A stretch of 64,000 nucleotides of DNA, from positions 791,339-855,338 of the forward strand of contig OX638329.1 in NCBI GenBank assembly GCA_951812755.1, in the 5' to 3' direction. Below, piece by piece: positions 22,774 to 60,258 of this stretch. The notes under the pieces were generated by a model, which saw nothing but the letters and a program-made list of their open reading frames with translations, did no database searches and was not told the DNA's origin. This DNA comes from an uncultured Latescibacterota bacterium (GTDB lineage: Bacteria > Latescibacterota > UBA2968). How positions within the stretch are numbered: position 1 is the stretch's first letter; every line of letters starts with the position of its first letter. Made by a program: the position numbers and the translations under genes.

Positions 22774-22848
22774 GGGCGAGGCATGCCTCGCCCGTCATTG
22801 CGGCATGCTGTAAGCCGCCACGCCGCAGGCACAACGCCAGTAATCCAG
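22774..22848. repeat. REP B palindrome followed by long-form REP A'
   Basis: Family B palindrome at 22774-22793, then the long form (GTCATTGCGGC..., 22794-22848) with a slightly changed insertion (CACGCCGCAGGCACAACGCCAGT). Upstream, AGCAGTCAGCGGTCAG belongs to a looser repeat also seen at 28050, 29838, 37196 and 42096. Confidence 0.88.
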
Positions 22849-28089: not shown

Positions 28090-28143
28090 GTCATTGCGGC
28101 ATGGTTTTAGCCGCCACGCGCAAGCACAACGCCAGTAATCCAG
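28090..28143 (+). repeat. Long-form REP A'
   Basis: GTCATTGCGGCATGGTTTTAG... with the CACGCGCAAGCACAACGCCAGT insertion in the right arm. The AGCAGTCAGCGGTCA string lies just upstream. Confidence 0.9.
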
Positions 28144-29791: not shown

Positions 29792-29995
29792 ACGTCATGT
29801 GTGACTTTGAAATAATGGTCAAAAAAACAAGCAATCAGTGCTCAGCAGTCAGAAAAACAAGGATTTTAGAGCCGTCATTGCGGCAGGGTGTTAGCCGCCA
29901 CGCGCAAGCACAACGCCAGTAATCCAGTGGTTTTGACTTTCTTATATCTGTTTATCGGTATTACTATATGGCGGTTTTGAAGTCACACATCACGT
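29792..29995. mobile_element. Candidate non-autonomous element, short copy
   Basis: Bounded by ACGTCATGTGTGACTTTGAA (29792) and the inverted TTTTGAAGTCACACATCACGT (ending 29995), the same ends as at 1124-1581. It holds one long-form REP A' (29874-29932) and no gene. No clear target duplication is seen here. The rest of the 29763-30024 gap shows nothing else. Confidence 0.5.
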
Positions 29996-37174: not shown

Positions 37175-37229
37175 CGTGTTTCTCTCCTTTATAAGCGGTC
37201 AGCTATCAGCAGTCATGGGTTTTAGAGCC

Positions 37230-37270
37230 GTCATTGCGGCATGCTTAAAGCCGCAATCCAGAAGGTTTTG
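37230..37270 (+). repeat. REP family A with compensatory arm change
   Basis: The stem is ATTGCGGC/GCCGCAAT rather than ATCGCGGC/GCCGCGAT: both arms changed together, so pairing is kept. Loop ATGCTTAAA. Confidence 0.9.
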
Positions 37271-37322
37271 ACTTTTACTCTGTGTTCATCCGCGTTCATC
37301 GGTGGTTGCTTTTTATTCGCAT

Positions 37323-38168
37323 TTATATTTTTAAATAAAAGCCTTCAACTAATTCTAAAAATTCGCGCCAGCTTTTGATTTCGACATGGGGGTCAGGTCC
37401 ATCGAGGGGGTCTTCCAGACGGTTGTACCATACGGCGCCCATGCCGGCGTTGTGCGCGGCTGCGATATCGTATTGCGGCGAGTTGCCCACATACCATATA
37501 TCGACGGGTTTGATCCCGAGTTTGGCGGCGGCTGTTTCCAATATGAGGGGGTGGGGTTTGCGCACCCAGTAGTCGGCGCTGGACATGAGGAAGCGGAAGT
37601 AGTCCGCGATGCCCTGTTGTTCGATTTCCCACATTAATGTGTTGCCGCAAAATGCGGCGTTGCTGACGATGCCCATTGGTATGTTTTTGTTTCGCAATAT
37701 TTCGAGGACGTATTCTATGCCCGGTTCGGGCTGCCAGGATGTTGCCGCACGCCAGAATACGCGTTCGACTTCTTCAGGGGTGCGGTCAAAGGTGATGTGC
37801 AGGGCTTCATAGACGTGGCGCTGGATGATGTGGGGGTGAAATTCTACCTGTGCTTTTTCCCTGCGGGGTATGAGGTCGCGGTTGAGTTTTTTTATGTGGT
37901 TGTCAATGTCTGCGACTGTGTATCCCGATGGGTTGTTGGCGATGTTAAGTGTGGCTGCATGCCCGGCTTCTGGGTCGAATTTGAGGTATGTCAAGAGGGT
38001 GTCGCCCAGGTCAAATAATATGCCGAGCGGTTTCCGCAGGGTGAGCCGTTCCTCGAGCAGGGGTTGCGATTCTTCTTCTGCCTCGATGAGCTGTTCTTCC
38101 CCGGTTTCTTCACCGCGTATGGATTCAGGCGTGCGTTCACGCATGTTTTTTTGGTTTTGTGGTTCCAT
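37323..38168 (-). CDS. HAD-superfamily hydrolase
   Basis: The 281-aa protein has a charged N-terminal extension of about 45 residues and then the HAD motifs: GILFDLGDTLL (I), MGIVSNAAF (II), RKPHPLI (III) and YVGNSPQYDIAAA (IV). It is likely a phosphatase on a small phosphorylated metabolite. ATG 38168 (MEPQNQK) is chosen because AGGAA lies about 10 bp upstream; a GTG 18 bp earlier is an alternative. Motif IV has one acidic residue less than usual, with Ser/Gln before the Asp. Confidence 0.85.
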   Translation of the reverse strand: MEPQNQKNMRERTPESIRGEETGEEQLIEAEEESQPLLEERLTLRKPLGILFDLGDTLLTYLKFDPEAGHAATLNIANNPSGYTVADIDNHIKKLNRDLIPRREKAQVEFHPHIIQRHVYEALHITFDRTPEEVERVFWRAATSWQPEPGIEYVLEILRNKNIPMGIVSNAAFCGNTLMWEIEQQGIADYFRFLMSSADYWVRKPHPLILETAAAKLGIKPVDIWYVGNSPQYDIAAAHNAGMGAVWYNRLEDPLDGPDPHVEIKSWREFLELVEGFYLKI

Positions 38169-38342: not shown

Positions 38343-38573
38343 CCGTCGTAGGGGCGGGTTTCCGTATAAAGGCATTACGGAATAGTCTTCCGTGCCCGCC
38401 CGTCATCGCGGCAATGTTTAAGCCGCGATCCAGAGGTTTTTGCTGTTGATTTTGGTTGTCATCGCGGCATGATTAAAGCCGCGATCCAGGAAGGTTTTGC
38501 TGTTGGTTTTGGTTGTCATCGCGGCAATGTTTAAGCCGCGATCCAGGAAGGTTTTGTTGACTGCCAAAAATTG
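38343..38573 (+). repeat. Repeat block: TTTCCGT-type hairpin and three REP A copies
   Basis: A hairpin element (GTAGGGGCGGGTTTCCGTAT..., about 38345-38400) is followed by REP A at 38402, 38458 and 38516, near-tandem with 56-58 bp spacing. The stretch from 38169 to 38342 holds only a diverged GGCGGCCAGT string shared with the 8460 region. No gene is evident. Confidence 0.88.
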
Positions 38574-39530: not shown

Positions 39531-39597
39531 CGTCATCGCGGCATGGTCCCCGTATAAAAGCACTACGGGGCATGCTTAGCCGCGATCCAGAGGTTTT
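39531..39597 (+). repeat. REP A with another hairpin nested in its loop
   Basis: The outer arms ATCGCGGC and GCCGCGAT enclose a second hairpin, CCCCGT ATAAAAGCACT ACGGGG. A similar nested form occurs at 41836-41890. Confidence 0.85.
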
Positions 39598-39675: not shown

Positions 39676-41415
39676 ATGAACTATAGCGACCAGGATATTG
39701 CACGCCAACTGCGCTTAGGCGAGGACAGCCAATGGGAATTTAAGCAGATCGCGTTTTCCGGGAATCGGCCCACAAGCCCCCGACGCGATGATCTGGCCGA
39801 TGAGATCGCGGCTTTTGCTAACACGGATGGCGGGATACTGTTGTGTGGGATAACTGATAGGGGTGATGTTCAAGGTTTGTCGCGCGAGCGGATGGATGAA
39901 TTGGAGAGGCTTCTGGTGGATATTTGCACCGATGTGATCAAGCCTCCAATCCGTCCCACCATCCTTCGACGCATTGTAGATGAACGTCCGTTGCTGCTGG
40001 TTGAAATACCACAGGGCCAGGCGCAGTACGATAGCCCCGGTGGCAGCTATCATCGGGTCGGCAGTTCGAAGCGCAGGATGACAAGCGAGGAGCGGTTGCG
40101 TCTGGCGCAGCGGCGGGGACAAGCGAGGTTTCGCTGGTTCGACGAGCAGCCCGTGCCGGATACCGGGTTCCGCACGCTGGACGAAACGTTTTGGAAACCG
40201 TTGTTGAGCGCGGAAGGCAGGGCCAATCCCGAAATGGCACTGGAAAAACTCGCGCTGTTAGGTAGGGATGAAAACGGCGCAATACGGGCCACGGTGGCGG
40301 GGATTCTCCTGTGTACTCACGCGCCAGAGCAGTGGCTTCCCAACGCCAGCATTACAGCCACGCACTACCGCGGGCAGGACCGGGCATCCGGCCAATTGGA
40401 TGCACAGATCATCACTGGTCCGATCAACCAGCAGGTGGCGGACGCAATGGCCTTCGCGATGCGCAACATGCGCGTCGGTGCTTACAAGAAACCCGCCCGC
40501 CTGGACCTGCCCCAGTACAGTGCCGAAGCACTTTTCGAGGCGATGGTTAATGCTGTCGCCCATCGGGACTATTCGATTCGCGGCAGCCGAATTCGAGTGT
40601 CCATGTTTGCAGACCGCATAGAAATCAATTCGCCGGGTGGGCTGGCGAATAACCTCACCATTGATAGCATGGCGGCTCGGCAAGCGACGCGTAACGAAAC
40701 CATCACATCTGTGCTTGGACGAATGCCCGTTGGTGACATTCCCGGGTCCGAAAAGCGTCAATTTTTCATGGAGCGTCGCGGCGATGGCGTTCCCATTATC
40801 CTGCGCGAGACCGAGGCGTTGAGCGGAAAAGCCCCCCAATATTGGCTTCTCGATGAGTCAGACCTCTTTCTGACGCTTCCCGCTGCAGACACGAATGCCA
40901 CGCCAGCCACTGTCGCGATGACGGTTCATAGCGATGGTCGTCCGGTCACTGGAGCCGATTTGCTGGTGCTGTTTCCGGACCATACATGGAAGCGAGCTAC
41001 GACGGATGATAATGGAGAAGCGACGGTAGATTTGTACGCGACGAACCTGCCCATGACTGTGTTCGTCGCCGCCAGGGGCTTTGCCGCACACCTTGAACGT
41101 GGGTGGGTTCCGGCGGATGGTGCGCTGGCTGTGGAACTCAACCCTCTTCTCAATGGCGGTTCGGTGATTTTTCCCGAGGCAACTGGTACTATTCCGGGGC
41201 TTAAAGGGCAAATCAATCCCATTCGCGGTGCCCATGACCGAACCTATCTCTATGCCTCGAATATCACCATCAACCAGGGTGAGCACCAACCTGTTCACTT
41301 TTCTTTTGGTGAAGACTTGCGGCTGATAGATGCTAATGGTGTCGAAGTGTGGGGGCGCATCATCCATATCGCAGGTCGATCAGCACTGGTTGAGTATCGG
41401 CCATTTGAGCCCTGA
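39676..41415 (+). CDS. AlbA_2 (Schlafen-like) / HATPase_c_4 protein with C-terminal beta domain
   Basis: This 579-aa protein has the N-terminal AlbA_2 domain (QWEFKQIAFSG, DDLADEIAAFANTDGGILLC), a middle region and a RecG-type ATPase C-terminal domain with ALFEAMVNAVAHRDYSIRGS and FADRIEINSPGGL. A further part (about 410-579) includes PVTGADLLVLFPDHTWKRAT and DNGEATVDLY, resembling a regulatory carboxypeptidase-like/Ig fold. AlbA_2 proteins occur in regulators and defence genes. It lies between 53-bp direct repeats with an orphan higA, at the left edge of the defence island. GGAGGTG precedes ATG 39676. Confidence 0.85.
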   Translation: MNYSDQDIARQLRLGEDSQWEFKQIAFSGNRPTSPRRDDLADEIAAFANTDGGILLCGITDRGDVQGLSRERMDELERLLVDICTDVIKPPIRPTILRRIVDERPLLLVEIPQGQAQYDSPGGSYHRVGSSKRRMTSEERLRLAQRRGQARFRWFDEQPVPDTGFRTLDETFWKPLLSAEGRANPEMALEKLALLGRDENGAIRATVAGILLCTHAPEQWLPNASITATHYRGQDRASGQLDAQIITGPINQQVADAMAFAMRNMRVGAYKKPARLDLPQYSAEALFEAMVNAVAHRDYSIRGSRIRVSMFADRIEINSPGGLANNLTIDSMAARQATRNETITSVLGRMPVGDIPGSEKRQFFMERRGDGVPIILRETEALSGKAPQYWLLDESDLFLTLPAADTNATPATVAMTVHSDGRPVTGADLLVLFPDHTWKRATTDDNGEATVDLYATNLPMTVFVAARGFAAHLERGWVPADGALAVELNPLLNGGSVIFPEATGTIPGLKGQINPIRGAHDRTYLYASNITINQGEHQPVHFSFGEDLRLIDANGVEVWGRIIHIAGRSALVEYRPFEP

Positions 41416-41427
41416 TTATCAGATTTA

Positions 41428-41460
41428 CCTGTTGACGTAGAGGTCGCGGACTATCACTAA
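41428..41460 (+). pseudogene. Scar of a higB toxin gene (last codons)
   Basis: The frame ending TAA 41460 reads LPVDVEVADYH, close to the usual HigB C-terminus (..DVEIVDYH). The rest of the toxin gene is missing and AlbA_2 coding sequence ends 13 bp earlier. higA begins 14 bp after this stop, exactly where a HigBA operon would place it. Too short to be certain, but the position makes it convincing. Confidence 0.6.
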
Positions 41461-41474
41461 CAGGGAGTAAGATC

Positions 41475-41780
41475 ATGGACGAAAAAAACGGTATGAGACT
41501 TGTGCATCCTGGTGAGATATTGAGCGAGGAACTCGAAACACTCGGCTTGTCGGCTAACGTGCTGGCTAAAGCACTCGATGTGTCGCTCGACCGCGTCACT
41601 GCGATCCTCAATGGTCAGCAGAGTGTAACCGCTGATATCGCACTCAGGTTAGCACGCTATTTTGGAATGACGCCGCAGGTCTGGTTGAACCTGCAGAAGA
41701 CCTACGAGCTTCGTCAAGCTGAGATTGATGTGGGCGAGCGCATTGCTAAGCGCGTGAAACCCCGGCAAGTAATGGTGTAG
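41475..41780 (+). CDS. higA: HigA-family antitoxin, toxin lost
   Basis: The 101-aa protein has the HigA pattern MRLVHPGEILSEELETLGLS, a helix-turn-helix (ANVLAKALDVSLDRVTAILNG) and the ADIALRLARYFGMTPQVWLNLQ tail. It normally represses its own operon and neutralises HigB. Its toxin partner survives only as the last codons at 41428-41460. AGGGAGTAAG precedes ATG 41475. Confidence 0.92.
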   Translation: MDEKNGMRLVHPGEILSEELETLGLSANVLAKALDVSLDRVTAILNGQQSVTADIALRLARYFGMTPQVWLNLQKTYELRQAEIDVGERIAKRVKPRQVMV

Positions 41781-41781
41781 A

Positions 41782-42090
41782 GGATGACAATAAGCAAGTA
41801 AACGTTGACATTCGTCACGACCTATCAACCAGGTAGTCATCGCGGCCCCGTATAGAGTCACTACGGGGCAGGCTATGGTTTTAGCCGCGATCCAGGAGGT
41901 TTTGCCGTTGGTTTTGATTGTCATCGTGGCATGCTTTAAGCCGCGATCCAGTAGGCAAGTAAACGTTGACATTCGTCACGACCTATCAACCAGGTAGTCA
42001 TCGCGGCATGGTTTTAGCCGCGATCCAGGAGATTTTGCCGTTGGTTTTGATTGTCATCGTGGCATGCTTTAAGCCGCGATCCAGAAGGTT
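41782..42090 (+). repeat. Right direct repeat and REP A cluster upstream of hsdM
   Basis: Full 53-bp repeat at 41782-41834, a nested-hairpin REP (CCCCGTATAGAGTCACTACG inside the loop), REP A copies at about 41920, 41998 and 42052, and a partial direct repeat at 41955-41995. The 150-bp unit is thus itself partly duplicated. A GCTGACCGCTGACTGC string (about 42094) precedes hsdM. No gene. Confidence 0.9.
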
Positions 42091-42140
42091 TTAGCTGACC
42101 GCTGACTGCTATGATTTCAACAGACAAAAAGGAATAATGG

Positions 42141-43703
42141 ATGACTAAAACGAATAAGGATAAATCCACTAATTACGAAGCGGAATTGTGGCAGATGGCC
42201 GATGCACTGCGCGGGAGTATGGATGCAGCGGAGTACAAGCATGTTGTGCTCGGTCTGATTTTTCTGAAGTATATCTCCGATGCTTTTCAGGAGGCGCACG
42301 CCCAGTTGGAGTTGGAGCGCGATGAGGGTGCTGACCCTGAGGATCCGGATGAGTACCGCGCTCAGAATATTTTTTGGGTGCCTCCCGAGGCGCGCTGGGC
42401 GATTCTTCAGGCTGCTGCGAGGCAACCGACGATCGGACAAAAGGTGGATGATGCGATGGTGGCTATTGAGCGCGATAATGAAGCATTGAAGGATGTGCTG
42501 CCCAAGGATTATGCCCGGCAGGCGTTGGATCAGACCCGTTTGGGTCAGGTTATTGACTTGATCAGCAATATCAATATTGGCGATTCAGAGGCGCGTTCTC
42601 GGGATATGCTGGGCCAGGTTTATGAGTATTTTTTGAGTCAGTTTGCTCTGGCTGAGGGACGCAAGGGAGGCGAATTTTATACGCCGCGCTGTGTGGTGAA
42701 TTTGCTGGTGGAGATGTTAGAACCCTATAACGGGCGGGTTTATGATCCGTGTTGTGGTTCTTCCGGTATGTTCGTGCAGTCTATCGCGTTTATTCAGGCG
42801 CATCAGAGCGGGAATGGCAATGGGGGCAATGCGCGGGCTGATATTTCTATTTATGGGCAGGAGTCTAATTATACGACGTGGCGTTTGGCAAAGATGAATC
42901 TGGCGATTCGGGGGATTGAAGGGCAGATCGCGCAGGGGGATACGTTTCACAATGACCGCTATCCCGATATGCGGGCGGATTATGTTCTGGCGAATCCTCC
43001 GTTTAATGTTTCGGATTGGGGCGGTGATCGGTTGCGCGAGGATCAGCGCTGGCAGTATGGCGTACCGCCCGTGCGGAATGCCAATTTTGCGTGGGTGCAA
43101 CATATTGTGCATCATCTTTCGCCGACTGGTACGGCGGGTTTTGTGCTGGCTAATGGCTCGATGTCGTCCAGCCAGTCTGGCGAGGGCGAGATACGCAAGA
43201 GTTTGATTGAGGCGGATCTGGTGGATTGTATGGTGGCGTTGCCAGGGCAGCTTTTCAGATCGACGCAGATTCCCGCGTGTCTCTGGTTTCTGGCGCGTGA
43301 TCGGCATAATGGAAGGTTCCGCGACCGCAGGGGTGAGGTCCTGTTTATTGATGCGCGGAAGCTGGGGTATATGGTGGATCGTACGCAACGGGAATTGACG
43401 GAGGAGGATATTGCCCGTATCTCGGATACTTACCACGCCTGGCGATCTGGTGTGGATTATGCCGATGTTCCCGGCTTTTGCAAGGGTGCCACGCTGGAAG
43501 AAATTAGCCGACACAGCCATATTCTTACGCCTGGTCGCTATGTGGGCGCCGAGCCGCAAGAGGATGATGGCGAACCTTTTGGGGATAAGATGAAGCGTCT
43601 GGTCGCGCAATGGCAAGAGCAACAGGCCGAGGCGAAGAGACTGGATACTGCGATAGATGCGAATTTGAAGACGCTCGGATTTGGGGGAGGACACGATGCC
43701 TGA
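42141..43703 (+). CDS. hsdM: Type I restriction-modification system, methyltransferase subunit
   Basis: The 520-aa HsdM methylates adenine. It has an N-terminal HsdM domain ([33 protein letters not shown]), the SAM-binding motif DPCCGSSGM (about 201-209), the [24 protein letters not shown]-type segment before it, and the catalytic NPPF (about 283-286). It is intact. AAAAAGGAAT precedes ATG 42141. It overlaps the hsdS gene by 8 bp, while its partner hsdR lies about 12.4 kb downstream beyond cargo genes. Confidence 0.96.
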
Positions 43704-45324
43704 TCGTCTGGATCTGCCCCGCCGCTATCGGGATCAGATTGAGGCACTGTTGCGGGAGCATGTGCCCGGTGTGGAGGTGTGGGCTTATGGTAGCCGCGTG
43801 AGCGGTAGAAGTCACGAGGGCAGTGACCTGGATTTGGTGCTGAGAGGTCCGGACTTGAAGCGGATACCCAGCGGCCAACTCGCTGATCTGATTGAGGCGT
43901 TGGAGCAGTCGAACGTTCCCATCATTGTGCAGATACATGATTGGGCGAGACTGCCGGAGAGCTTTCACCGAGAGATTGAGCGGGAATATGTAGTGTTGGT
44001 GGAGAAAGAAGATGAGCGGTGTCTGGCCGGTGATTGGCAGTTGTTAAGACTTTCCGATGCTGTACATTTGATTGGTGGTGGGACACCGAAACGAAGTCAT
44101 ACTGAGTACTGGGGTGGGTTGATTCCTTGGCTTTCGGTAAAAGATTTTAATAATGACAATCGTCATGTGGAATCTACAGAGGAATCCATTACCGAACTTG
44201 GACTTATAAAAAGCAGTGCCAAAATTCTGAAGGAAGGTCAGTTAATCATTTCCGCCCGAGGGACAGTTGGTGCTTTAGCACAACTGTCAAAGCCTATGGC
44301 TTTCAATCAGTCATGTTATGGAATAGATGCAAAACCTGAATATACAACAAACGATTTTCTCTATTATCTTATTAAGCATTCTATAGTTGATTTCAAACAA
44401 GTTACCCATGGAGCGGTGTTCGACACTATTACTCGAGAAACATTTGAGCATATATGGATAAACCTACCCCCTCTCCCTGAACAACGCGCCATCGCTCACA
44501 TCCTCGGCACGCTGGACGATAAGATCGAGTTAAACCGCCGTATGAACGAAACACTGGAAGAGATGGTCCGCGCCCTGTTCAAATCGTGGTTCGTCGATTT
44601 CGACCCCGTCCGCGCCAAAATGGAAGGTCGCGATCCCGGTCTGCCAAAACACCTCGCCGACCTATTTCCCGACCGCCTCGTGGATTCGGAATTGGGACCG
44701 ATACCGGAAGGGTGGGAGGTTGGATGCTTTGGTGATATAGTTGATCAAATTCGAGACAATGAAAACCCACTCGCTTCTCCAGATACTGTCTTCCACCACT
44801 TCAGTATTCCGGCCTTCGATAAAAACCAATGGCCACAGATAGAATGTGGCGAAGATATCAAAAGTCAGAAATCTCGTGTGCCACCGGAAGTGATTTTGTT
44901 ATCAAAGCTTAATCCGGAGGTTGAGCGCGTCTGGTTCGTGGATGTGGCATCTGATGAGAGGGCAATATGTTCGACCGAGTTCTTGGTGCTTCAGGCTCGA
45001 CAGCCGTTCCAACGGAGCTACGTCTATTGCTTTGCACGCTCCCCGTTCTTTCGCCAACAGATTGAATCTCTCGTAACAGGCACGTCGAAAAGTCACCAAC
45101 GGGCACCAGCAGGAGCCGTTCTTGCCCTGGAAGCCATAATACCATCGACACCAGTCATTCGCGCGTTTGACCAGCAAGCTTCGGTACTCTTGGACAGGAC
45201 TGTTGGCTACCGCAGAGAGACCATCACCCTTGCCGCTCAGCGAGACGCGCTGTTGCCGAAGCTCATTTCTGGAGAATTGCGAGTAACGGACGTAGAAAGA
45301 CACATCTCGAAAGAATACACATGA
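43696..45324 (+). CDS. hsdS: HsdS specificity subunit fused to an N-terminal nucleotidyltransferase (MNT) domain
   Basis: The 542-aa protein has an MNT-like domain at about 1-105: [20 protein letters not shown] with G32-S33 and D44/D46, then [10 protein letters not shown], where the usual third acidic residue is Gln79. HsdS follows: target-recognition domain 1 (about 115-250), the central conserved [20 protein letters not shown] (about 256), TRD2 from [12 protein letters not shown] (about 333), and [14 protein letters not shown] (about 515). HsdS sets the DNA target; the MNT domain may regulate it or be vestigial. ATG 43696 overlaps hsdM. The following gene overlaps its stop by 4 bp. Confidence 0.9.
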
Positions 45325-45737
45325 AACACTGTTGCCAAAATTGCCACTTTCTGACCAAAGACCATATTTGGCCTAACGGAGAAGAGCGTTCCTTCTCATG
45401 GACTACGGAAGAACGAAAAAACTTTCGTCTTGCGATTGAGGAGGATCACAAGGCTAGGTGTTACAAAAACGTTTGGAACACAGAAATTGACTCGACACTG
45501 CAAGACAAGCTCAAAGAAGTCTTGTTGCAAGATCGGAAGGGCGATTGTTTCTTTCTCGAAGAGCATCAGGGCATGTCGTTTCAAGCGGCCCACGAACTGT
45601 TTCAGATCCGCAATGATAACCGACAACTAAAGCGCAGCTATAGATACACACAAATCGGTTTGTGGATTGCGGCTGTCGGCCTAGTTGCAAACGTGGTTGT
45701 GAAGTTACTCGAAATATTGGGATGGATTCCGCAGTAA
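45321..45737 (+). CDS. Small Cys-rich protein with a C-terminal transmembrane helix
   Basis: This 138-aa protein has an N-terminal C4-C5-x2-C8 cluster ([10 protein letters not shown]) plus two later Cys, a charged helical middle, and one membrane helix near the end (IGLWIAAVGLVANVVVKLLE). I do not recognise a family. ATG 45321 overlaps the hsdS stop (ATGA), so it is translated with hsdS. A cytoplasmic sensing domain with a membrane anchor suggests an accessory or effector of the restriction system; that is inference. Confidence 0.7.
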   Translation: MKHCCQNCHFLTKDHIWPNGEERSFSWTTEERKNFRLAIEEDHKARCYKNVWNTEIDSTLQDKLKEVLLQDRKGDCFFLEEHQGMSFQAAHELFQIRNDNRQLKRSYRYTQIGLWIAAVGLVANVVVKLLEILGWIPQ

Positions 45738-45764
45738 GTGTAGTTTCAAGGCGAGATTAATCTT

Positions 45765-45848
45765 GAAATCCCAGACCGCTGCGAAATCCGCACACTCGCC
45801 ATCCTGCGTGACGCGCTATTGCCGATGTTGGTATATGGGGAGTTGTGA
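45765..45848 (+). pseudogene. Remnant of an hsdS 3' end (first copy)
   Basis: The frame ending TGA 45846-45848 reads EIPDRCEIRTLAILRDALLP followed by MLVYGEL, matching the end of HsdS proteins (..[14 protein letters not shown]). It is not from the intact hsdS upstream, whose own end differs. Only about 27 codons remain, between the Cys-rich gene and the SIR2 gene, so a second hsdS was cut or recombined here. Confidence 0.72.
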
Positions 45849-45874
45849 GTTAAACAAACGGAGATGAAAACACT

Positions 45875-47653
45875 GTGATTGATCCAGTTCATTCATTAGC
45901 GTTCTCGGTTCAGGCCAATCCTGGCGTTTACGCTGTCCTTTTAGGTTCGGGAGTGTCCAGAGCAGCAAAAATTCCCACAGGCTGGGAAGTGACGCTTGAT
46001 TTGATTCGCAAATTGGCAAAGCTCCACGAGGAGACGAGTGATCCCGACCCGGAACACTGGTATCGAGAGAAGTTCAATCAGGAGGCAAATTACTCTGATC
46101 TTCTCGACGCACTTGCTAAAAAACCGGCCGAGCGACAACAGCTACTACGTGCGTACTGGGAACCGAGCGAGCAAGAACGCGCGGATGAGGAGAAACAACC
46201 CACAGCGGCGCACCGCGCTATCGCGGCATTGGCAGCGCAAGGATTCGTCAAGGTCATCATTACGACGAATTTTGACCGTCTTGTGGAAACCGCTCTCAAC
46301 GATGAGGGAGTTGTTCCGACGGTTCTGAGTTCCCCGGATCAGGTTCAGGGCGCGCTTCCATTGATTCACACACAATGTTGTGTCTTTAAGGTGCATGGCG
46401 ATTACCTCGACACCCGCATTAGAAATACGCCTGCCGAATTGGATGAATATCCACCCGAGTTCGATCAACTCTTAGACCGCATCTTTGATGAATTCGGTCT
46501 GATCGTATGTGGCTGGTCAGCAGAGTGGGATGAGGCGTTGCGTTCTGCGTTTATTCGCGCGCCATCGCGTCGATTCACGACATATTGGGCGGCGCGAGGC
46601 GAACCAGGCGACAAGGCCCAAAAACTTATTGATCATCGCAAAGCGCAAGTGATTCCCATTGAGGATGCTGACACATTTTTTCAAACCGTTCAGCAAAACG
46701 TCGAGTCCATTGAGGAGTTTTCGAGACCTCACCCGCTTTCTACCGAGGCTGCTGTAGCAAGTCTGAAGCGATACATTGTCGAGTCCCGATACCGGATTCA
46801 ATTTTCAGATCTTATTGATCAGACAGTTGAGCGAGTTATCGAACTGACTTCTGGCGAGGCTTTTGCCGTACCAGATGATCCAAATCTGTCCAGCGAGCGC
46901 GTTACTGCGTGTGTACGTGGCTATGAGAAGGCGTGTTCGACATTACTGGCAATGGCACTAACCGGGGGCTTTTGGGCAGAAGAGGAGCACTATTCCGTGT
47001 GGCAACGGGCACTACAGTATCTCGTTTCAAGAACACCAAGCAGCGGCTCCGGTTTTGGAGTATCTGGCATTATCCAGGACACATGGCTTGAGTTGCAACG
47101 ATATCCGGCGACGCTTCTGCTCTATGCGTTGGGACTCGGTGCTGTCGAGGCTGATCGGCTTCGGTTTCTCAAACACTTGCTGGCTACCACACTTCGTGGA
47201 AGACGCCAGGAGGATGTGTCTGCAGTACAGATACTTCCACCTTTCTGCTTGTTTTCAGGAGGTGGACAGATAATGCAGCATCTGGAAGGAATGGACAGAC
47301 GCCACGCCCCACTAAATGACTGGATACACGATACATTGCAGTCACACGCCGAACTCATCATTCACGACAACAATCGATATACCCTGGTGTTCGATAAGCT
47401 CGAGATACTGATGGCACTCAGCTACGCATATCATGACGAAAGGTCTCTAGACCGGTACTGGGCACCTGCTGGTGCTTTCGGATACCGGTCTGATAACAGA
47501 GGTCGAATTTTTCAGGAGATTGAGGAATCGCTCTCAACCATGCAAGCCGAGTCCCCATACGTAACATCTGGGATTTTCGGCGAGACCGTTGCGGAGTGTA
47601 AACAAGGCGTGGAGGCTTTGAAACAATTTATTCCGAGTTTGCGTTGGTATTGA
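45875..47653 (+). CDS. SIR2-domain defence protein
   Basis: The 592-aa protein has an N-terminal SIR2-like domain: VLLGSGVSRAAKIPTGWE (22-39), IITTNFDRLVETAL (about 127-140) and VFKVHGD (about 169-175). SIR2 domains of bacterial defence systems often degrade NAD when infection is sensed. The C-terminal half (about 300-592) is helical and unrecognised, possibly a sensor. The GTG start at 45875 is used, with CGGAGATG about 10 bp upstream. It lies in the island between two hsdS scars, with the GIY-YIG gene 122 bp later; the 47654-47775 gap shows nothing. Confidence 0.85.
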   Translation: MIDPVHSLAFSVQANPGVYAVLLGSGVSRAAKIPTGWEVTLDLIRKLAKLHEETSDPDPEHWYREKFNQEANYSDLLDALAKKPAERQQLLRAYWEPSEQERADEEKQPTAAHRAIAALAAQGFVKVIITTNFDRLVETALNDEGVVPTVLSSPDQVQGALPLIHTQCCVFKVHGDYLDTRIRNTPAELDEYPPEFDQLLDRIFDEFGLIVCGWSAEWDEALRSAFIRAPSRRFTTYWAARGEPGDKAQKLIDHRKAQVIPIEDADTFFQTVQQNVESIEEFSRPHPLSTEAAVASLKRYIVESRYRIQFSDLIDQTVERVIELTSGEAFAVPDDPNLSSERVTACVRGYEKACSTLLAMALTGGFWAEEEHYSVWQRALQYLVSRTPSSGSGFGVSGIIQDTWLELQRYPATLLLYALGLGAVEADRLRFLKHLLATTLRGRRQEDVSAVQILPPFCLFSGGGQIMQHLEGMDRRHAPLNDWIHDTLQSHAELIIHDNNRYTLVFDKLEILMALSYAYHDERSLDRYWAPAGAFGYRSDNRGRIFQEIEESLSTMQAESPYVTSGIFGETVAECKQGVEALKQFIPSLRWY

Positions 47654-47775
47654 AGGTGGCTCGTGCTTCTTTACCAAATCTATCATAAAAAGACCCGCCC
47701 TTGCTTATCTGTGAAGTTCAATCGGTGCGGTGTCGCTGGTATATGCGTCACAAAATATATTAGGAGAACCCACCA

Positions 47776-48648
47776 ATGGATCGGCCATTAGGATTTTCAG
47801 TAACAATCTTCTTCCCTTCGGGTCAGTTAGAAGGCCTGCGTGTAATTGAGAAGTCGAATTGGGCAGGACAAGGTCTTATTTTTTCTCGCTCGGTCTTCGC
47901 CGACGAAGTTCGCCACCGAGAAGAACTCAATCTTACCGGCGTGTATGTCCTTTGGGGACCCGGCGAAACAGAGCAATTGCCTCGTGTCTATGTAGGTGAG
48001 GGCAATGTATTGCTGCAACGACTGGATAGCCATATGAGAGACAAGGGTTTCTGGACCCATGGGGTTGTCTTCACGAGCAACCAGAGCCTGAACAAGGCAC
48101 ACGTTCAATACCTCGAAGCCCGGCTGGTACAACTCGCGAGTGAAGCGAAGCGCTGCAAATTGGACAACACAAATACCCCACAGAAGCCATCGCTATCGGA
48201 TACGGATATGACGCCTGCAGAGCAGTATCTGACCGACATGTTGCGATGCCTGTCTATCGTAGGGGTGAATTTTTTCGACAAACCGCGGGAACCAAGAAAA
48301 ACAAATCAAGACTTTTTCCTGAGTGGTAAAAATATAAAGGCGCAGGGTTCTGAAGATAAGTCAGATTTTGTCGTACGCGCCGGTTCTCAAGCGGTCAAGA
48401 CCGAGGCTAAGTCGATACCTGTCCGTCATTCTAAACTCCGAAAGGAACTACTGGACCAGGGCATTTTTCAAGATACAGGTACCGCGTACCGGCTTGTCAA
48501 AGACTGCCGCTTTAATTCACCTTCCGCTGCAGCTAGCGTTCTACTAGGAACATCCAGCAATGGGCGTATCCTATGGAAGGATGCCAACGGGAGATCTTTG
48601 AAGGAAATCCAAGAAGAAGAGACAATTGACGAATCTGATGTCGAATAA
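47776..48648 (+). CDS. GIY-YIG nuclease-family protein with DUF4357
   Basis: The 290-aa protein has a GIY-YIG domain starting LTGVYVLWGPG (about 53-63), then RVYVGEGNVLLQRLDSHM and an EARLVQLA helix with the acidic residue, and a C-terminal DUF4357 domain (about 198-280: FVVRAGSQAVKT...SPSAAASVLLG). Such proteins cut DNA or are predicted to in defence loci. TAGGAGAA precedes ATG 47776. It may act with the SIR2 gene upstream as a nuclease/NADase pair, which is inference. Confidence 0.85.
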   Translation: MDRPLGFSVTIFFPSGQLEGLRVIEKSNWAGQGLIFSRSVFADEVRHREELNLTGVYVLWGPGETEQLPRVYVGEGNVLLQRLDSHMRDKGFWTHGVVFTSNQSLNKAHVQYLEARLVQLASEAKRCKLDNTNTPQKPSLSDTDMTPAEQYLTDMLRCLSIVGVNFFDKPREPRKTNQDFFLSGKNIKAQGSEDKSDFVVRAGSQAVKTEAKSIPVRHSKLRKELLDQGIFQDTGTAYRLVKDCRFNSPSAAASVLLGTSSNGRILWKDANGRSLKEIQEEETIDESDVE

Positions 48649-48672
48649 AGTCGTCATCGTCTAGAGGAAGAA

Positions 48673-48732
48673 TCCTGCACACGCGCCTCTCTACGGAATG
48701 CGCTGCCAAGGCTGGTTTAGGACAAGTTGTAA
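48673..48732 (+). pseudogene. Possible remnant of an hsdS 3' end (second copy)
   Basis: The frame reads CTRASLRNALPRLV, stop, DKL, stop, resembling a decayed LRDALLPxLxxGEL end. It lies directly after the GIY-YIG gene and before the TPR gene, the same relative position as the first remnant. Similarity is short, so confidence is moderate. Confidence 0.45.
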
Positions 48733-48791
48733 TTAAATCCTCTACGCCTATTTTTTCGAACGAACTTGGGAATTAGAGAGATAAGGTAAAC

Positions 48792-50624
48792 ATGGCAGAT
48801 CATAGCGAGAAGATTTGTTTCGTAATTGCGCCTATCGCCGAACAGGGAACGGATATCCGCAAACGGTCTGATCAGGTTTTAGAATACATTATTCGTCCGG
48901 CAGTGGAGTCTTGTGGCTACAAAGCTGTTCGTGCCGACGAGATTGCCGAGCCAGGTATTATTACTAATCAGATCATTCGACATGTTGTTGATGATCCTTT
49001 GGTCATAGCCGATTTAACAGGACAGAACCCCAACGTTTTTTATGAATTAGCCATTCGGCATGCCGTCCGCAAGCCGCTCGTCCAGATCATTGACAAAGTC
49101 GAGGCTATTCCTTTTGATGTCAGGCCAATGAGAACAATAGGGGTTGATCACCGAGATCTCGATAGCGTTGAAAAAGCCAAATCCGAAATTAAAAAACAAA
49201 TTCAATTCTTTGAAGAAAGTTCATCAAGTTTGGAGACTCCTATTTCGGTAGCACTTGAGGGTAAATCTATTGATAAGATTAATCGGCGTATGAACGCCGA
49301 AACAGTTGCCGATAAACCTGAAGAAGTGCGAAAGGTCGTTACTAACGAAGGTAAAAAATACACGGTATCGCCGATAGATAAGGCAATTGTCCAGGCCGTT
49401 TTTCTCGATCAGCAAGGCAAGACAGACGAAGCAATCGAGAAATGGCGTGCCGTTGCCCTGGTCGCGGAAGAAAGCGACGGTGAACTCGCTGCCAAAGCCT
49501 GGTATTCTGTTAGCTATCTGTCCTGGGATAAAAATACGGAGGGTAGCTTATTGGCCAGCGACGAAGTGATTCGTTTGAAGCCAGACTTCGCTGAGGCATA
49601 TAACATCCGGGGAAATGCGAAGGCCGTACTAAATCGGAACGAAGACGCCATCGCTGACTATGATGAAGCGATTCGATTGGAATCAGACTACGCCAATGCA
49701 TATTATAACCGGGGGACTGCGAAGGACGACTTAGGCCACCATGAGGATGCCATTGCCGATTTTGACGAAGCGATCCGTTTGAAACCAAACTTCTTCCTGG
49801 CATACAACAACAGAGGGAATGCGAAGGCCGTACTGGATCGGAACGAAGATGCTATCTCTGACTATGATGAGGCGATTCGATTGCAACCAGACTACGCCAA
49901 TGCATACGCCAACCGGGGTAATGTGAAGGCCGTACTGGATCGGAACGAAGATGCTATCTCTGACTATGACAAGGCAATTGGCCTGAAGCCGGATTTTTCC
50001 GAAGCATACAACAACCGGGGTATCGCGAAGGCCAACTTGGAGCGTTATGATGATGCCATCGCTGATTATGATGAATCGATTCGGTTGGAACCATACGATG
50101 CTGGAGCATACAACAACCGGGGAATTGCGAAGGCTGACCTGGGTCGTTATGAAGATGCCATTGCTGACTATGATGAGGCGATTCGGTTGAAACCAGACGA
50201 CGCTGAAGCTTACTGTAATCGAGGGGATGCGAAGGCGGAACAGGATCGCTACGAAGGTGCCATCTCTGACTATGATGAGGCGATTCGATTGGAACCAGAC
50301 GACGCCGATGCTTACTGCAATCGAGGGGATACAAAGGCCGATCTGGGTCGTTACAAAGACGCTATCACTGACTACGATGAAGCGATCCATTTGGAACCAG
50401 ACGATGCCGACGCTTACTGTAATCGGGGTGCTGCGAAGGACGAATTAGGCCAGCATGAGGACGCCATCGCTGATTATGATGAGGCGATTCGGTTGAAACC
50501 AGAAGCCGCCGATGCTTACCACAACCGGGGGAATGCGAAGGCTGCATTGGGCCGAAACGACGAGCACGGCAGGACTTGGAGACTGCGCTCGAATTGGCGC
50601 AGAATGCCAACGATACGGACTTAG
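48792..50624 (+). CDS. Deoxyribosyltransferase/TIR-like domain fused to about ten TPRs, C-terminus frameshifted
   Basis: The N-terminal domain (about 1-120) has CFVIAPIAEQGTDIRKRSDQ, a YIIRPAVE helix and VVDDPLVIADLTGQNPNVFYELAIRHA. This resembles nucleoside 2-deoxyribosyltransferase/TIR-like sensor folds of defence proteins. Residues about 195-600 are near-identical TPR units (AYxNRGxAKxxLxxxxDAIxDYDEAIRLxPD). After ALGRNDE a one-base loss near 50564 changes frame; the other frame continues ARQDLETALELAQNANDTD and ends at 50674. So about 40 residues of the natural end are altered. Confidence 0.8.
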   Translation: MADHSEKICFVIAPIAEQGTDIRKRSDQVLEYIIRPAVESCGYKAVRADEIAEPGIITNQIIRHVVDDPLVIADLTGQNPNVFYELAIRHAVRKPLVQIIDKVEAIPFDVRPMRTIGVDHRDLDSVEKAKSEIKKQIQFFEESSSSLETPISVALEGKSIDKINRRMNAETVADKPEEVRKVVTNEGKKYTVSPIDKAIVQAVFLDQQGKTDEAIEKWRAVALVAEESDGELAAKAWYSVSYLSWDKNTEGSLLASDEVIRLKPDFAEAYNIRGNAKAVLNRNEDAIADYDEAIRLESDYANAYYNRGTAKDDLGHHEDAIADFDEAIRLKPNFFLAYNNRGNAKAVLDRNEDAISDYDEAIRLQPDYANAYANRGNVKAVLDRNEDAISDYDKAIGLKPDFSEAYNNRGIAKANLERYDDAIADYDESIRLEPYDAGAYNNRGIAKADLGRYEDAIADYDEAIRLKPDDAEAYCNRGDAKAEQDRYEGAISDYDEAIRLEPDDADAYCNRGDTKADLGRYKDAITDYDEAIHLEPDDADAYCNRGAAKDELGQHEDAIADYDEAIRLKPEAADAYHNRGNAKAALGRNDEHGRTWRLRSNWRRMPTIRT

Positions 50625-50691
50625 TGGACGAGGTGAAGCAATTACTTCGCGACCTCGACGCCGATGACACATGATTCCCTGGGAAATCACG

Positions 50692-50973
50692 TTACGCATC
50701 TAATACGCGCTGAAATGCCTCGATATTGGGCACCTGTATCGCCGCACGGTGCAACTGCTTGAGGTGTTGCAAATCGTCGATGGCGGCAATGCGAGCAGAT
50801 AGGGTGTGTGTTTCGGGCATGTCAAAACGAATCTCCAGCACTTCAAGGATAGCTTCGATCGTGCTTCTTTTTTCGCCTTGCTCAATGCCCTCCTCAAGGC
50901 CCTCCTCTCTGGCTTCCGCTCTACTTTGTTGGGTAAGGGATTGAAAAAGAGATGATTCGCGCAAGATGTCCAT
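50692..50973 (-). pseudogene. C-terminal fragment of an Rpn/PD-(D/E)XK transposase-like nuclease
   Basis: The reading from ATG 50973 gives MDILRESSLFQSLTQQSRAE, the EEGLEEGIEQGEKRS repeat and a helical end, the pattern of the C-terminus of Rpn-type (YhgA-like) proteins. The nuclease domain that should precede it is absent and the DNA upstream is repetitive, so this is a 5'-deleted remnant. It is antisense to the TPR gene, 18 bp from the restored TPR stop. Confidence 0.55.
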
Positions 50974-51275
50974 GATGCCCTCCAAAAAATGAGCGATAAT
51001 TTGCGTTGGCAGACGTCTAAACACTGCATTGTGCTTTAAATATGCTGTATTGCGCCCTTGTTTACAACCTGAATTTAAATCCGCAGATGGACGCAGATGG
51101 GCACAGAACAATTTCGGATGCGAAGGGGTACATTTTGAGCAATGAATGGACGGTTATGTGAAAGATATGTACCGCTGGATCATGTGGCTACCGCGGTGGT
51201 TCTTGCGTAATGTCAGTGGTTTATCCATGGTTTAGGCTGATCGTGCTACCGTGAGTGTCTATAGTAATACCAGCC

Positions 51276-51304
51276 TTGCACGAAAGGCCGATATGGTCTA
51301 TTAT
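51276..51304 (+). promoter_or_regulatory. Sigma-70-like promoter P1
   Basis: TTGCAC (51276-51281) and TATTAT (51299-51304) are separated by 17 bp. The spacer end GATATGGTC is identical in P2 at 53153-53181, so the two promoters were duplicated together with their spacing. Confidence 0.6.
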
Positions 51305-51380
51305 TTATTGGGATAGGGGAGAACTGAGATCGGATGAATGGTCTCTCAGGGAGTGGATGACTACAATCAGGGAGAATGAG

Positions 51381-51476
51381 ATGCAAGTTGAGCGTAAAAC
51401 ACCAAATTTGGAAGCGATATTGGAAGTATTTCGAGAACTGGGATTAGGAGGATGCCAGGGTAAGAGACAAGTTTAA
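51381..51476 (+). CDS. Possible 31-aa ORF downstream of P1
   Basis: ATG 51381 gives MQVERKTPNLEAILEVFREL and a short tail. It has AGGGAGAA upstream but no recognised family and may be a leader or fragment. The rest of the 51112-51564 interval shows no other coding signal. Confidence 0.25.
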   Translation: MQVERKTPNLEAILEVFRELGLGGCQGKRQV

Positions 51477-51564
51477 GAAATTGGCTGAGTTAGGCGATTG
51501 GCATACGTGGAGAAGAAGGCGCCTTGAACCCCAGGAAATACTGAGAATGAACAAGGAGATAATT

Positions 51565-51651
51565 ATGCCTAATTGGAACCAATTTCTTGACGAAATTCGC
51601 GTTGCCCAAATAGGTATCGAAGGAGGTGCAGATGGTAGATGCGAGAGGTAA
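51565..51651 (+). CDS. Possible 28-aa ORF coupled to the DUF6602 gene
   Basis: ATG 51565 after AAGGAGAT gives MPNWNQFLDEIRVAQIGIEG and a short tail ending at TAA 51651. The opening resembles the start of SppA/serine-dehydrogenase-type protease genes of defence islands, but it stops after 28 residues. It overlaps the next start and may be a truncated gene now serving for translational coupling. Confidence 0.35.
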   Translation: MPNWNQFLDEIRVAQIGIEGGADGRCER

Positions 51652-52471
51652 CAGATATGCGCTACCTGAATATTTGGCAGACGTAGCCCGGGAAATGGCG
51701 TTTAAGTCTGAATCAATTAGGCGGGATTTTGCCCATCACCGTCTGTCAGCCGGAGAACATCGCGAAGACCTAGTCAAGAACTTCTTGCAAGGACACCTAC
51801 CAAAACGATTTGGGGTCAGTAGTGGCTTTGCTATTTCAACCGAGGGCATGTTTTCTTCTGAGGCAGACCTTTTGGTTGTTGACCATCAGAATAATGCCCC
51901 ACTCTACCCCCACAATCGCAAAAGTCTGTGGCCTGTTGAAGCTATATATGCACTCATTGAAGTAAAGACCTATTTGAGTAGCACCGAATTGAAGAACGCG
52001 ATTTCTAAAGGACGTAAATTTAAGTCATTGCAGCGGCAGTTTTGTCAGGTCTCCGAACAACCATCTCAGACTCAAAGAATTGAAGATTCGTTATTCGTCA
52101 TATGGGCATTCGAAGTCCCTGGTACCCAAAAGCTAAAATCCAATCTCATAGAACTATTGTCTAGTGTACCAGTGAATGAGCAACCCGATTTTATTATTGT
52201 TCCTGAACGCTTAGTTGCCCAATCCGGTAGCTATAGGGAACTTGTTAAACTCGGGCAACCAGACAGTAACCACCGGCGCAAGTTAGAAGAACAGTATGGA
52301 CAGGATCTTTCGGGGATCTTGTCTGAACCTGTTCAAGTAGATGATTTCAGAGAGAACGCGCTATCTGCCTGGTACATATGGTTTGATTCATGGCTCCGTA
52401 GGGCAGGGGATCGCTTTACTGATCCAATTTTATATTTGCCGCCAGATAAGATCTGGGGGAATAGAGTTTGA
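51632..52471 (+). CDS. DUF6602 nuclease-like protein
   Basis: The 279-aa protein has REDLVKNFLQGHLPKRFGVS, then an EADLLVVD acidic strand and an ALIEVKTYL strand, a D...ExK pattern like PD-(D/E)XK nucleases. The rest is helical with IWAFEVPGT and DFIIVPERLV. DUF6602 proteins occur in defence islands, with unproven function. ATG 51632 follows AAGGAGG by 5 bp. Third-position bases are richer in A/T than in hsdM or hsdR. Confidence 0.75.
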   Translation: MVDARGNRYALPEYLADVAREMAFKSESIRRDFAHHRLSAGEHREDLVKNFLQGHLPKRFGVSSGFAISTEGMFSSEADLLVVDHQNNAPLYPHNRKSLWPVEAIYALIEVKTYLSSTELKNAISKGRKFKSLQRQFCQVSEQPSQTQRIEDSLFVIWAFEVPGTQKLKSNLIELLSSVPVNEQPDFIIVPERLVAQSGSYRELVKLGQPDSNHRRKLEEQYGQDLSGILSEPVQVDDFRENALSAWYIWFDSWLRRAGDRFTDPILYLPPDKIWGNRV

Positions 52472-52521
52472 AGGGAACGAAAATGACCACCAGCAAAACA
52501 CAAATAAAGGATTGAAGATTA

Positions 52522-52638
52522 GTGGCAAATATTAACCTTACCCAAGCAGAAGCAGACGCTTTAATCGCGATGGAAAAACACCGGGTAACAGATGAGGGGA
52601 CAGGCTTCCCGAACATTGATCGGGGGCTTTTCACATGA
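52522..52638 (+). pseudogene. N-terminal fragment of a DUF6978-like gene
   Basis: GTG 52522 gives [20 protein letters not shown] and ends RGLFT at TGA 52636-52638. The first 20 residues match the start of DUF6978 proteins, which accompany DUF1828 genes. The family body is missing, so this is a fragment. Its stop overlaps the ATG of the DUF1828 gene. Confidence 0.5.
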
Positions 52639-53033
52639 TTAAAGACATTCAGAATCTGATTGATGACTATCATGTTTGGCTCAAGGACAAGACGGTACTG
52701 AACCAGATTGATCAGTGGATCGAAATTACAACGCCCTATCTTGATCGCCACAACGACTATGTGCAGATCTATGTCAAGAAGACCAACGGGGGGTTCTTGT
52801 TGACGGATGATGGGTACATTATAGATGACCTGAAGCAAAGCGGCTGTAAGCTCGACAACCAAAAGAACCAGGAACTTCTCCAGATGGTGCTCAATGGTTT
52901 TGGTGTAAAGAAAGACGGCAATGAGTTGCAGGTCCATGCTTCGGCGGAGAGTTTTGCTTCATGTAAACACAATCTCGTACAGGCGATGCTTGCCGTTAAT
53001 GATATGTTCTGTCTGGAAATAGAAACCTCCTGA
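52635..53033 (+). CDS. DUF1828-domain protein
   Basis: The 132-aa protein contains the DUF1828 core: an [20 protein letters not shown] stretch, [20 protein letters not shown] and the AMLAVNDMF end. Many relatives continue into a DUF1829 domain; this one stops just after DUF1828, so it is either a short form or truncated. It is translationally coupled to the DUF6978-like fragment. Likely a small partner in a toxin-antitoxin or defence unit; role unknown. Confidence 0.72.
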
Positions 53034-53152
53034 TTCCCTTCACTTAATCCACCATTTAAGACACCACTCTCGCCTAACAGAGATCCCACCACCAGTGCCT
53101 TCCCGATGCAGACTGGGTCAGGCCAAAGTGAATTTTTGTGACAGTGCTGACC

Positions 53153-53181
53153 TTGCAAAGACAGTCGATATGGTCTATTAT
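53153..53181 (+). promoter_or_regulatory. Sigma-70-like promoter P2 for the helicase/DUF2290 pair
   Basis: TTGCAA (53153-53158) and TATTAT (53176-53181) with a 17-bp spacer. CGATATGGTCTATTAT is shared with P1. It lies about 90 bp upstream of the helicase start. The 53034-53152 stretch holds nothing else. Confidence 0.6.
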
Positions 53182-53273
53182 TGTATATTGCGGACTGTAG
53201 TTCGCTCCAGATCAAGCTTAAAAAATTATGCGCATACGTTATACAGAAATTAAAATTACAAGGAGAATTAATC

Positions 53274-55442: not shown

Positions 55443-55447
55443 CGACT

Positions 55448-59100: not shown

Positions 59101-59262
59101 ACGATTGATTGGACGCTGCGAGAGAATGTGCGCGCGAATTTGCGCCGGTTGGTCAAGCGCATTCTGCGCAAGCACGGGTATCCGCCGGATAAAGCGGATG
59201 GCGCGACGCTGACGGTTTTGAAACAGGCGGAGATGCTTTCAGAGGGGTGGGCTGTAGGATAG
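56113..59262 (+). CDS. hsdR: Type I restriction endonuclease, HsdR motor subunit
   Basis: The 1049-aa subunit has the N-terminal nuclease domain ([20 protein letters not shown], about 142-161, with the ExK), then the SF2 motor: Walker A HTQGSGKS (about 325), [11 protein letters not shown] (about 431), FTGTPIE and the [12 protein letters not shown] motif, and a helical C-terminus. It cleaves DNA far from the unmethylated target with HsdM and HsdS. Its G/T-ending codons match hsdM and host genes but not the cargo before it. It overlaps DUF2290 by 4 bp. Confidence 0.95.
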
Positions 59263-60192: not shown

Positions 60193-60258
60193 GTCATCGC
60201 GGCATGCTTTAAGCCGCGATCCAGAGGTTTTGTAGGGGCGGTGCCCCGTGCCCGCCCG
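60193..60258 (+). repeat. REP A and GGGGC-type hairpin
   Basis: REP A at 60193-60230 (loop ATGCTTTAA) followed by GTAGGGGCGGTGCCCCGTGC. They separate the divergent genes at 60113 and 60325 and might carry regulatory sites, but no promoter consensus stands out. Confidence 0.88.

Follow-up and report, generated by a model that had tools for sequence, protein, structure and literature searches.

The window analysed here is a 64-kb stretch of DNA that corresponds to positions 791339-855338 of the single contig of its own genome (G000). The feature under study is a hairpin on the forward strand, where positions 37230-37261 read GTC-ATTGCGGC-ATGCTTAAA-GCCGCAAT-CCAG. The GTC tag (37230-37232), which is CGTC with the preceding C and was recognised from the sequence, from column counts and from the CGTC tag described in PMC3733652, is followed by the 5' arm ATTGCGGC (37233-37240), a 9-nt loop, ATGCTTAAA (37241-37249), of a type that occurs with either kind of arm, the 3' arm GCCGCAAT (37250-37257), and a CCAG tail with a moderately conserved AGAAGGTTTTG extension (37258-37270). 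Folding gave an 8-bp stem and a 9-nt loop for either strand (z = -2.9 and -2.8). The window also contains a defence-like island (39676-59262) that encodes a SLFN_AlbA_2/HATPase_c_4 protein (39676), an HTH protein (41475), HsdM (42141), an HsdS-type protein (43681) that also matches a nucleotidyltransferase, a SIR2_2 protein (45875), and HsdR (56113), and copies of the hairpin are present in its first intergenic gaps.

A scan of the window gave 30 rows; the row at 38345 was a spurious overlap with 38402 and was set aside, leaving 29 copies, all on the forward strand. The arm combination ATCGCGGC/GCCGCGAT accounted for 22 of the 29, and GCCGCGAT occurred 52 times versus 4.7 expected. The ATTGCGGC/GCCGCAAT combination was found in a short form at 37230 alone (1/29). 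In the copies at 41920 and 42053, which are ATCGTGGC/GCCGCGAT, a single arm was altered and a G.T pair was retained. The preliminary description had reported that the two arms change together, and this was confirmed in the window except that one arm alone was altered in 2 of the 25 short copies. It had also stated that most copies are ATCGCGGC/GCCGCGAT, which is correct for the window (22/29) but not for the fetched part of the genome, where 62 perfect copies had ATCGCGGC and 58 had ATTGCGGC.

Two head-to-tail arrays of six copies each were located at 3508-3920 (unit 76-77 bp) and 7997-8396 (unit 74 bp). C-G copies, named for the variable pair of the stem, were found at 6771-6800 (loop identical to that of the hairpin at 37230), at 13448-13604 (two copies, 13448 and 13575), at 38402-38544 (three copies, 38402, 38458, and 38515), and at 60193-60222. 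The copies at 39532-39588 and 41836-41893 each carried a CCCCGTA..TACGGGG hairpin nested in the loop, and a group of three at 41920-42082 included the two one-sided variants, in which a C to T change gives CGTGGC. The four long forms were located at 1387-1438, inside a miniature element termed MITE M1 (TIR CTAGTGCATC/GATGCACTAG), at 22794-22846 (23-bp insert), at 28090-28141 (22-bp insert), and at 29874-29925, where the marker flank of a second element, MITE M2, was present. All four fit the earlier claim that long forms share the ATTGCGGC arm and carry an insert before AAT, with 22 to 23 bases inserted between GCCGC and AAT. Elsewhere in the genome, CGTCACCCCGTA..TACGGGGTCCAG hairpins were noted at positions 735452, 751993, 756209, and 757708; read in reverse, their core is similar to the hairpin that the loops at 39532 and 41836 enclose.

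Family size and coupling of the two arms

The hairpin at 37230 was one of 298 matches to GTCATNGNGGC-N3-33-GCCNCNATCC in the 6.53-Mb genome (one contig of 6,530,187 bases), 177 of them forward and 121 reverse; the reversed pattern gave no match in the same whole-genome scan. The family was carried by 10 of the 11 genomes of the genus, with 23 to 298 matches each and the most in the own genome. No match to the family pattern was found in the remaining congener, G008 (one contig, estimated 99% complete), and three single matches were found among 69 other genomes examined beyond the genus.

Copies were collected from the fetched part of the own genome and of its relatives with GTCAT and ATCC fixed, at least four of the five inner letters of each arm matched, and positions 6 and 26 left free, and repeats with identical 12-base flanks were excluded from the set of distinct copies. 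Tag, stem, and tail were little variable, and loop and flanks were free to vary. In the 180 distinct copies with a 9-nt loop, the base preceding GTC, which itself was fixed by the pattern, was C in 106, T in 71, G in 2, and A in 1; in the tail, A31 was invariant (180/180) although it was not in the search pattern, and G32 was conserved in 179 of 180. The AT of the first stem pairs was also fixed by the pattern in this set but was left freer in a looser scan of 121 own copies, in which there were two changes at stem positions 27-28; all scored positions were matched in 105 of the 121, and few copies were therefore decayed. Loop length was 9 nt in 181, 10 nt in 29, and 8 nt in 1 of 211 distinct copies when the pattern allowed 7 to 10 nt, and among the matches listed for the genome scan, which allowed gaps of 3 to 33, loops were about equally long. 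One-sided stem changes on the GTC strand were, with few exceptions, C to T, which keeps G.T, and included C>T at position 8 in 10 of 121 own copies and at position 11 in 11 of 87 copies from relatives. Three other stems with an identical tag and tail, GTCACTCCGGC, GTCACCCCGTA, and GTCACGCCTGC, were present in the own genome.

Of the eight stem pairs in this family, a single one changed on both sides. Among the 211 distinct copies, this pair was C-G in 133, T-A in 72, and mixed in 6, and a third pair type, A-T, was found in one copy (G000:2088327). The mutual information between positions 6 and 26 in the 180 copies with a 9-nt loop was 0.773 bits, compared to an entropy of 0.956 for position 6, and that of all other columns, loop and flanks included, was at most 0.13. 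The covariation that the preliminary description had proposed to check thus lies far beyond chance (0.77 of 0.96 bits; 6 of 211 mixed), and the independent variation of the arms that it had named as the contrary outcome was not seen among the 211 distinct copies.

One explanation for the coupling is shared ancestry alone, by which two old subfamilies, C-G and T-A, have been copied and the arm pairing is an unconstrained relic. Such an origin is consistent with the finding that just two states are frequent, and these at a single pair, but is very unlikely, since both arm types were found with one and the same loop type for 12 of 40 loop types in the own genome and 19 of 64 overall, and arm state was nearly independent of loop and flanks. 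The link between the two arms is thus stronger than their link to the intervening loop, which is not what common descent by itself would yield. Loop columns were also nearly independent of each other; the highest value inside the loop was 0.36, for the adjacent positions 13 and 14. Loop positions 12-20 use small letter alphabets yet are near-independent, which is odd for copies related by descent. Nine strictly flank-matched pairs, two of which are overlapping stretches of one congener, contained no orthologous arm switch; 59 looser ortholog pairs were left uncounted since they mixed different insertions at one site.

A second explanation is template switching, in which one arm serves the polymerase as template for the other during replication and arm coupling is a mutational by-product that arises without selection. 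The mechanism is known (PMC8794818); in PMC7202029, quasipalindromes are reported to become more perfect through it, with a strand bias. Loop columns near linkage equilibrium beside matched arms, the rarity of mixed states (6/211), and the stem swaps and nested hairpins all fit this process. Conversely, the one-sided variants at positions 8 and 11 persist, and template switching by itself explains neither the invariance of the unpaired tail (A31 and G32) nor the orientation bias and origin gradient described below. The matching inverted-repeat arms and the strand bias are points of likeness to quasipalindrome mutation, which is, however, a mutation process and not a dispersal process. We consider template switching a real possibility for the coupling, although somewhat on the improbable side. 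The earlier conclusion that paired changes indicate that the hairpin is kept therefore stands only in part: the arms are coupled, but a single pair changes on both sides, template switching yields a like pattern, and the long forms, in which the 8-bp stem is broken, are dispersed as well. The case for selection is thin because only that one pair changes on both sides, and in palindromic repeats a joint change of the arms is by itself no proof of selection.

Insertion polymorphism and MITE-borne copies

Alignment to congeners placed the hairpin at 37230 within a 128-bp block (37194-37321, forward strand) that was also present in G004, G005, and G007, with small differences outside the hairpin, and was missing from G001, G002, G003, G006, and G009. 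At this site G008 had unrelated sequence, and G010 lay outside the alignment. The hexamer TTTATA lies on both sides of the block (37188-37193 and 37322-37327), as an apparent 6-bp duplication, and occurs once at the empty site of each of G009, G002, and G006. Other polymorphic blocks, surveyed as 31 groups of which several represent one site, were 50 to 332 bp in length, longer than the hairpin, and varied in their ends; apparent flanking duplications of 7, 8, or 14 bp were seen at some of them and none elsewhere. In this they are unlike IS608-type insertions, which are not known to make flanking duplications. The polymorphic blocks were mosaics of intergenic repeats, and hairpins were also nested in one another (39532 and 41836).

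The two MITEs carry some of the copies. M1 is roughly 135 to 160 bp in length, contains the hairpin in short and long form, and is unpolarised; its own-genome sites, assigned by TIR or flank, include 721611, 792725 (window 1387), 927507, 1049250, 1318786, and others. M2 has the TIR ATGTGTGACTT/AAGTCACACAT, is about 190 bp in one congener, and also carries the hairpin; its own-genome sites, assigned in the same way, are 821212 (window 29874), 1438894, 1977719, 2224117, and 2822780. Of 151 copies scored for TIR or flank, 24 had the marks of M1 and 7 those of M2, and the remaining 120 were without these two marks.

In the fetched own-genome sequence, 19 matches to the long-form pattern were found, all with T in the 5' arm, 18 with the AAT end and 1 irregular; there were no matches in the loci of relatives that were searched. 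The insert was 22 nt in six cases and 20 to 46 nt in the other regular ones. Two long forms were folded and did no better than shuffles (z = -0.7 and +0.2). Long forms have a broken 8-bp stem and are dispersed all the same. Classification of 18 long forms placed 9 in M1, 1 in M2, and 8 among the free copies (9 under a stricter rule). About half of the long forms may thus have spread as MITE passengers, since 10 of 18 (9 of 18 by the stricter rule) lie inside MITEs.

Orientation and density relative to replication

In the own genome dnaA is located at 379 kb, and the cumulative GC skew has its minimum at about 392 kb and its maximum near 3.33 Mb. The cumulative curve was drawn from 100 stretches, each 20 kb long, that cover 31% of the genome. 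Polarity was scored by GC skew over about a third of the genome, and hence on a part of the 298 copies, and copies within 400 bp were treated as one cluster. Copy orientation agreed with the local skew in 72 of 93 clusters, a count obtained by removing five intragenic fuzzy hits from 98 clusters (75 agreeing), and in 63 of 71 clusters at a skew above 0.08. The copies in the sampled stretches and in four more stretches from the dense region were then divided into free-standing, M1-borne, and M2-borne classes. Free-standing clusters followed the replication strand in 70 of 80 cases (64 of 69 at a skew above 0.05), M1-borne clusters agreed with the skew in 9 of 19, and M2-borne copies agreed in 6 of 6. 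For clusters with clear skew outside the dense region (0.69-1.06 Mb), agreement was 33 of 38 for free-standing copies versus 3 of 11 for M1-borne ones (Fisher, 0.0003), a contrast that is post hoc because the M1 class was set up once the units had been inspected. The first class rule had put the copies at 540119 and 5094642, both against the skew, into M1 by TIR match alone; under the stricter rule the values were 70 of 82 for free and 9 of 17 for M1-borne clusters.

A block-flip test of the polarity gave p values of 0.0006 (200-kb blocks) and 0.02 (500-kb blocks), and a single vote per 65-kb bin gave 32 of 47. The polarity was repeated in relatives in 24 of 27 loci, a set in which L002 and L014 overlap and L012 and L013 have no pattern match, or in 22 of 25 once two loci matching the fetched part of the dense region are left out; where relatives' sequence is orthologous to that region, all 46 of 46 agreed, but these are not independent. 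The number of free clusters per 20 loci fell from origin to terminus as 27, 16, 9, 5, and 3 (Spearman rho = -0.44, p = 4e-6; -0.57 on the right arm and -0.31 on the left). The best of 200 trial centres was 359 kb, near dnaA and the skew minimum, and three at least equalled 385 kb. The gradient of noncoding DNA was slight (rho = -0.14, p = 0.15), and that of M1 copies was weaker than that of free clusters (7, 5, 4, 1, and 2; rho = -0.22, p = 0.03). Taken together, these results show that the orientation of free-standing copies goes with the local GC skew, that their density is highest close to the origin, and that M1-borne copies are without orientation.

Gene direction was rejected as the source of the polarity. 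The leading-strand direction was taken in 28 of 33 cases between head-on genes and 17 of 27 between co-directional genes, so that orientation is independent of flanking genes; in the frame of the element, gene flanks were -- in 38, ++ in 22, +- in 18, and -+ in 12 cases. This bears on whether the repeat is an RNA element, that is, a transcribed hairpin at mRNA ends or in leaders, as the near restriction of one-sided changes to C to T, which keeps G.T on the GTC strand, could suggest. C to T is, however, also the mutation expected on the GTC-bearing replication strand. With an orientation that does not follow genes, no immediate T run, and no Rfam match in the window at the gathering score, an RNA element is distinctly unlikely.

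Alternatively, the copies could mark the lagging-strand template of the chromosome, perhaps as sites of binding or priming, and be under selection, so that their orientation and origin bias are kept by function. KOPS are an example of polarised chromosome motifs, and both the polarity with its origin gradient and the low variability of tag and tail are consistent with a function of this kind. In opposition to it, M1-borne copies hold the same hairpin in both orientations, sites turn over (the block at 37230 is missing from five congeners), and G008, although 99% complete by estimate, is without any match, and we judge selected marks to be rather unlikely.

Other repeats were scored in the same way. 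CGTC-1-like single copies in other genomes, in loci of up to 8 kb, were not polarised (32 of 71 agreed with the skew, and 17 of 30 where it was clear) when 80 listed of 119 stretches, each of at least 3,000 bases, were taken and dimer members were kept apart; either polarity is not a general property of CGTC repeats or the CGTC-1 loci were too short. Of 34 clusters of GTAGGGGCGA repeats, 29 agreed with the skew (28 of the 29 in which it was clear); these repeats are not independent of the hairpins that they abut. These GTAG-tagged GTAGGGGCGA..TCGCCC palindromes adjoin some of the CGTC hairpins (for example by window position 3508 and at G000 530797 and 785462) and have the same polarity, in a genome with no Y1 match. 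Two further CGTC families ran against the skew, ACTCC with agreement in 0 of 5 clear-skew clusters and 2 of 8 overall and ACCCCGTA with 0 of 4 by either count, and we read both as putative partners in composite blocks.

Relation to known repeats and mode of spread

The preliminary description had suggested a search for a REP-associated tyrosine transposase (RAYT). No match to the Y1_Tnp profile was obtained in the own genome, which is the richest in copies, and the same search was positive in 5 of 14 control genomes. Mobilisation by such an enzyme would be in keeping with a short-tagged, intergenic, clustered hairpin, with the Y1_Tnp matches that 6 of 11 genomes in the genus contain, and with locus L288, where a copy with one tail base changed lies about 110 bp from the Y1 gene. 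It is nevertheless highly improbable: besides the lack of a Y1 match where copies are most numerous, Y1 presence was unrelated to copy number, the tag is CGTC and not GTAG, and three of the four Y1 loci read were without a copy. The own genome also had no match to the IS110-type Transposase_20 profile, and Ku end-joining was found in 0 of 11 genomes of the genus. For reverse transcriptase, 4 of 11 genomes had matches, the match in the own genome being a single partial one, and there was no link to copy number. In these profile searches, limited to Y1/RAYT, Transposase_20, reverse transcriptase, and Ku, none of the four accounted for the spread of the hairpin.

The observation of a hairpin repeat was right, and the pattern itself is of a known kind. 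In the survey by Di Nocera, De Gregorio and Rocco (2013), CGTC-tagged REPs, which include dRS3 of Neisseria and RPE-4 and RPE-6 of Rickettsia, have the tag, stems of 8 to 9 bp that start with AT, and CCA tails, with seemingly no dedicated transposase; their loops are 4 to 5 nt, with exceptions noted by the authors, and they form mostly head-to-head dimers and few clusters (PMC3733652). The present family shares with them the CGTC/TGTC tag, an 8-bp stem starting with AT, the CC(A) tail, an intergenic location, and many copies; as to an accompanying transposase gene, its own genome has no match of the Y1_Tnp and Transposase_20 types searched. It differs from them in its 9- to 10-nt loops and in its head-to-tail arrays of a single orientation in the window, compared to head-to-head dimers of the same stem, although head-to-head pairs with CGTC hairpins of other stems do occur in the flanks of own-genome copies. 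It differs also in its replication polarity, its origin gradient, and its carriage inside two MITEs. The family of about 300 copies is therefore best filed as a new family of CGTC-tagged REPs.

Alternative complementary stem residues are mentioned in that survey for GTAG families. GTAG REPs with RAYT (TnpAREP) are likewise tagged, dispersed hairpins that form mosaic clusters, but the tag here is GTC and the genome has no Y1 transposase match. IS608 and ISDra2, of the IS200/IS605 group, use the lagging-strand template (PMC6006769), which would give a replication polarity like the one found here; the present family differs from them in having no Y1 match and in the apparent flanking duplications at some sites. 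A term search of PMC3733652 found no mention of leading or lagging strands, and no account of a replication polarity of CGTC repeats turned up among the titles and abstract openings listed, from a library with few of the subscription papers, or in a term search of the 2025 RepRanger paper. What is new here is the replication signature of the free-standing copies and its absence from the same hairpin inside M1.

The best explanation, which in our estimation could equally well prove right or wrong, is a fork-linked, single-strand spread of free-standing CGTC-tagged hairpins by an enzyme that is not of the Y1 and IS110 kinds searched. Judging from the skew, GTC..CCAG would be in the leading-strand sense and hence in the sequence of the lagging-strand template. 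Free-standing copies would then move at the replication fork in the form of single-stranded hairpins, in a manner similar to IS200/IS605 elements, and would be recognised by tag, hairpin, and tail, with the pairing of the arms retained because recognition needs it. The enzyme would be neither a Y1 (RAYT) nor an IS110 transposase of the kinds searched, and copies would often arrive within mosaics of intergenic repeats and not alone. Counting against this explanation are the 32 of 47 obtained with a single vote per 65-kb bin, the unpolarised CGTC-1 copies of other genomes, the post hoc definition of the M1 class and its own weak origin gradient, the polarity of the M2-borne copies, and the variable block ends with their apparent duplications. 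A more specific proposal is that the hairpins of this genus spread in single-stranded form on the lagging-strand template, mostly near the origin and with no Y1 transposase, through an undescribed enzyme or replication process that recognises the arm pairing; we put it forward tentatively, as possible and not as probable. Under this proposal, the loss of polarity inside M1 would set insertion apart from selection for orientation.

The 2013 survey of CGTC-tagged REPs left open their mode of mobilisation and whether copies still form. In the present genus, congeners at roughly 90-96% DNA identity are polymorphic for a family of about 300 copies with a replication signature. The M1-borne copies are a candidate built-in control, and the search is narrowed to fork-linked single-strand processes, which can now be tested. 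In the own genome, the region at about 750-860 kb is a copy-dense zone with tandem arrays and several one-sided stem variants.
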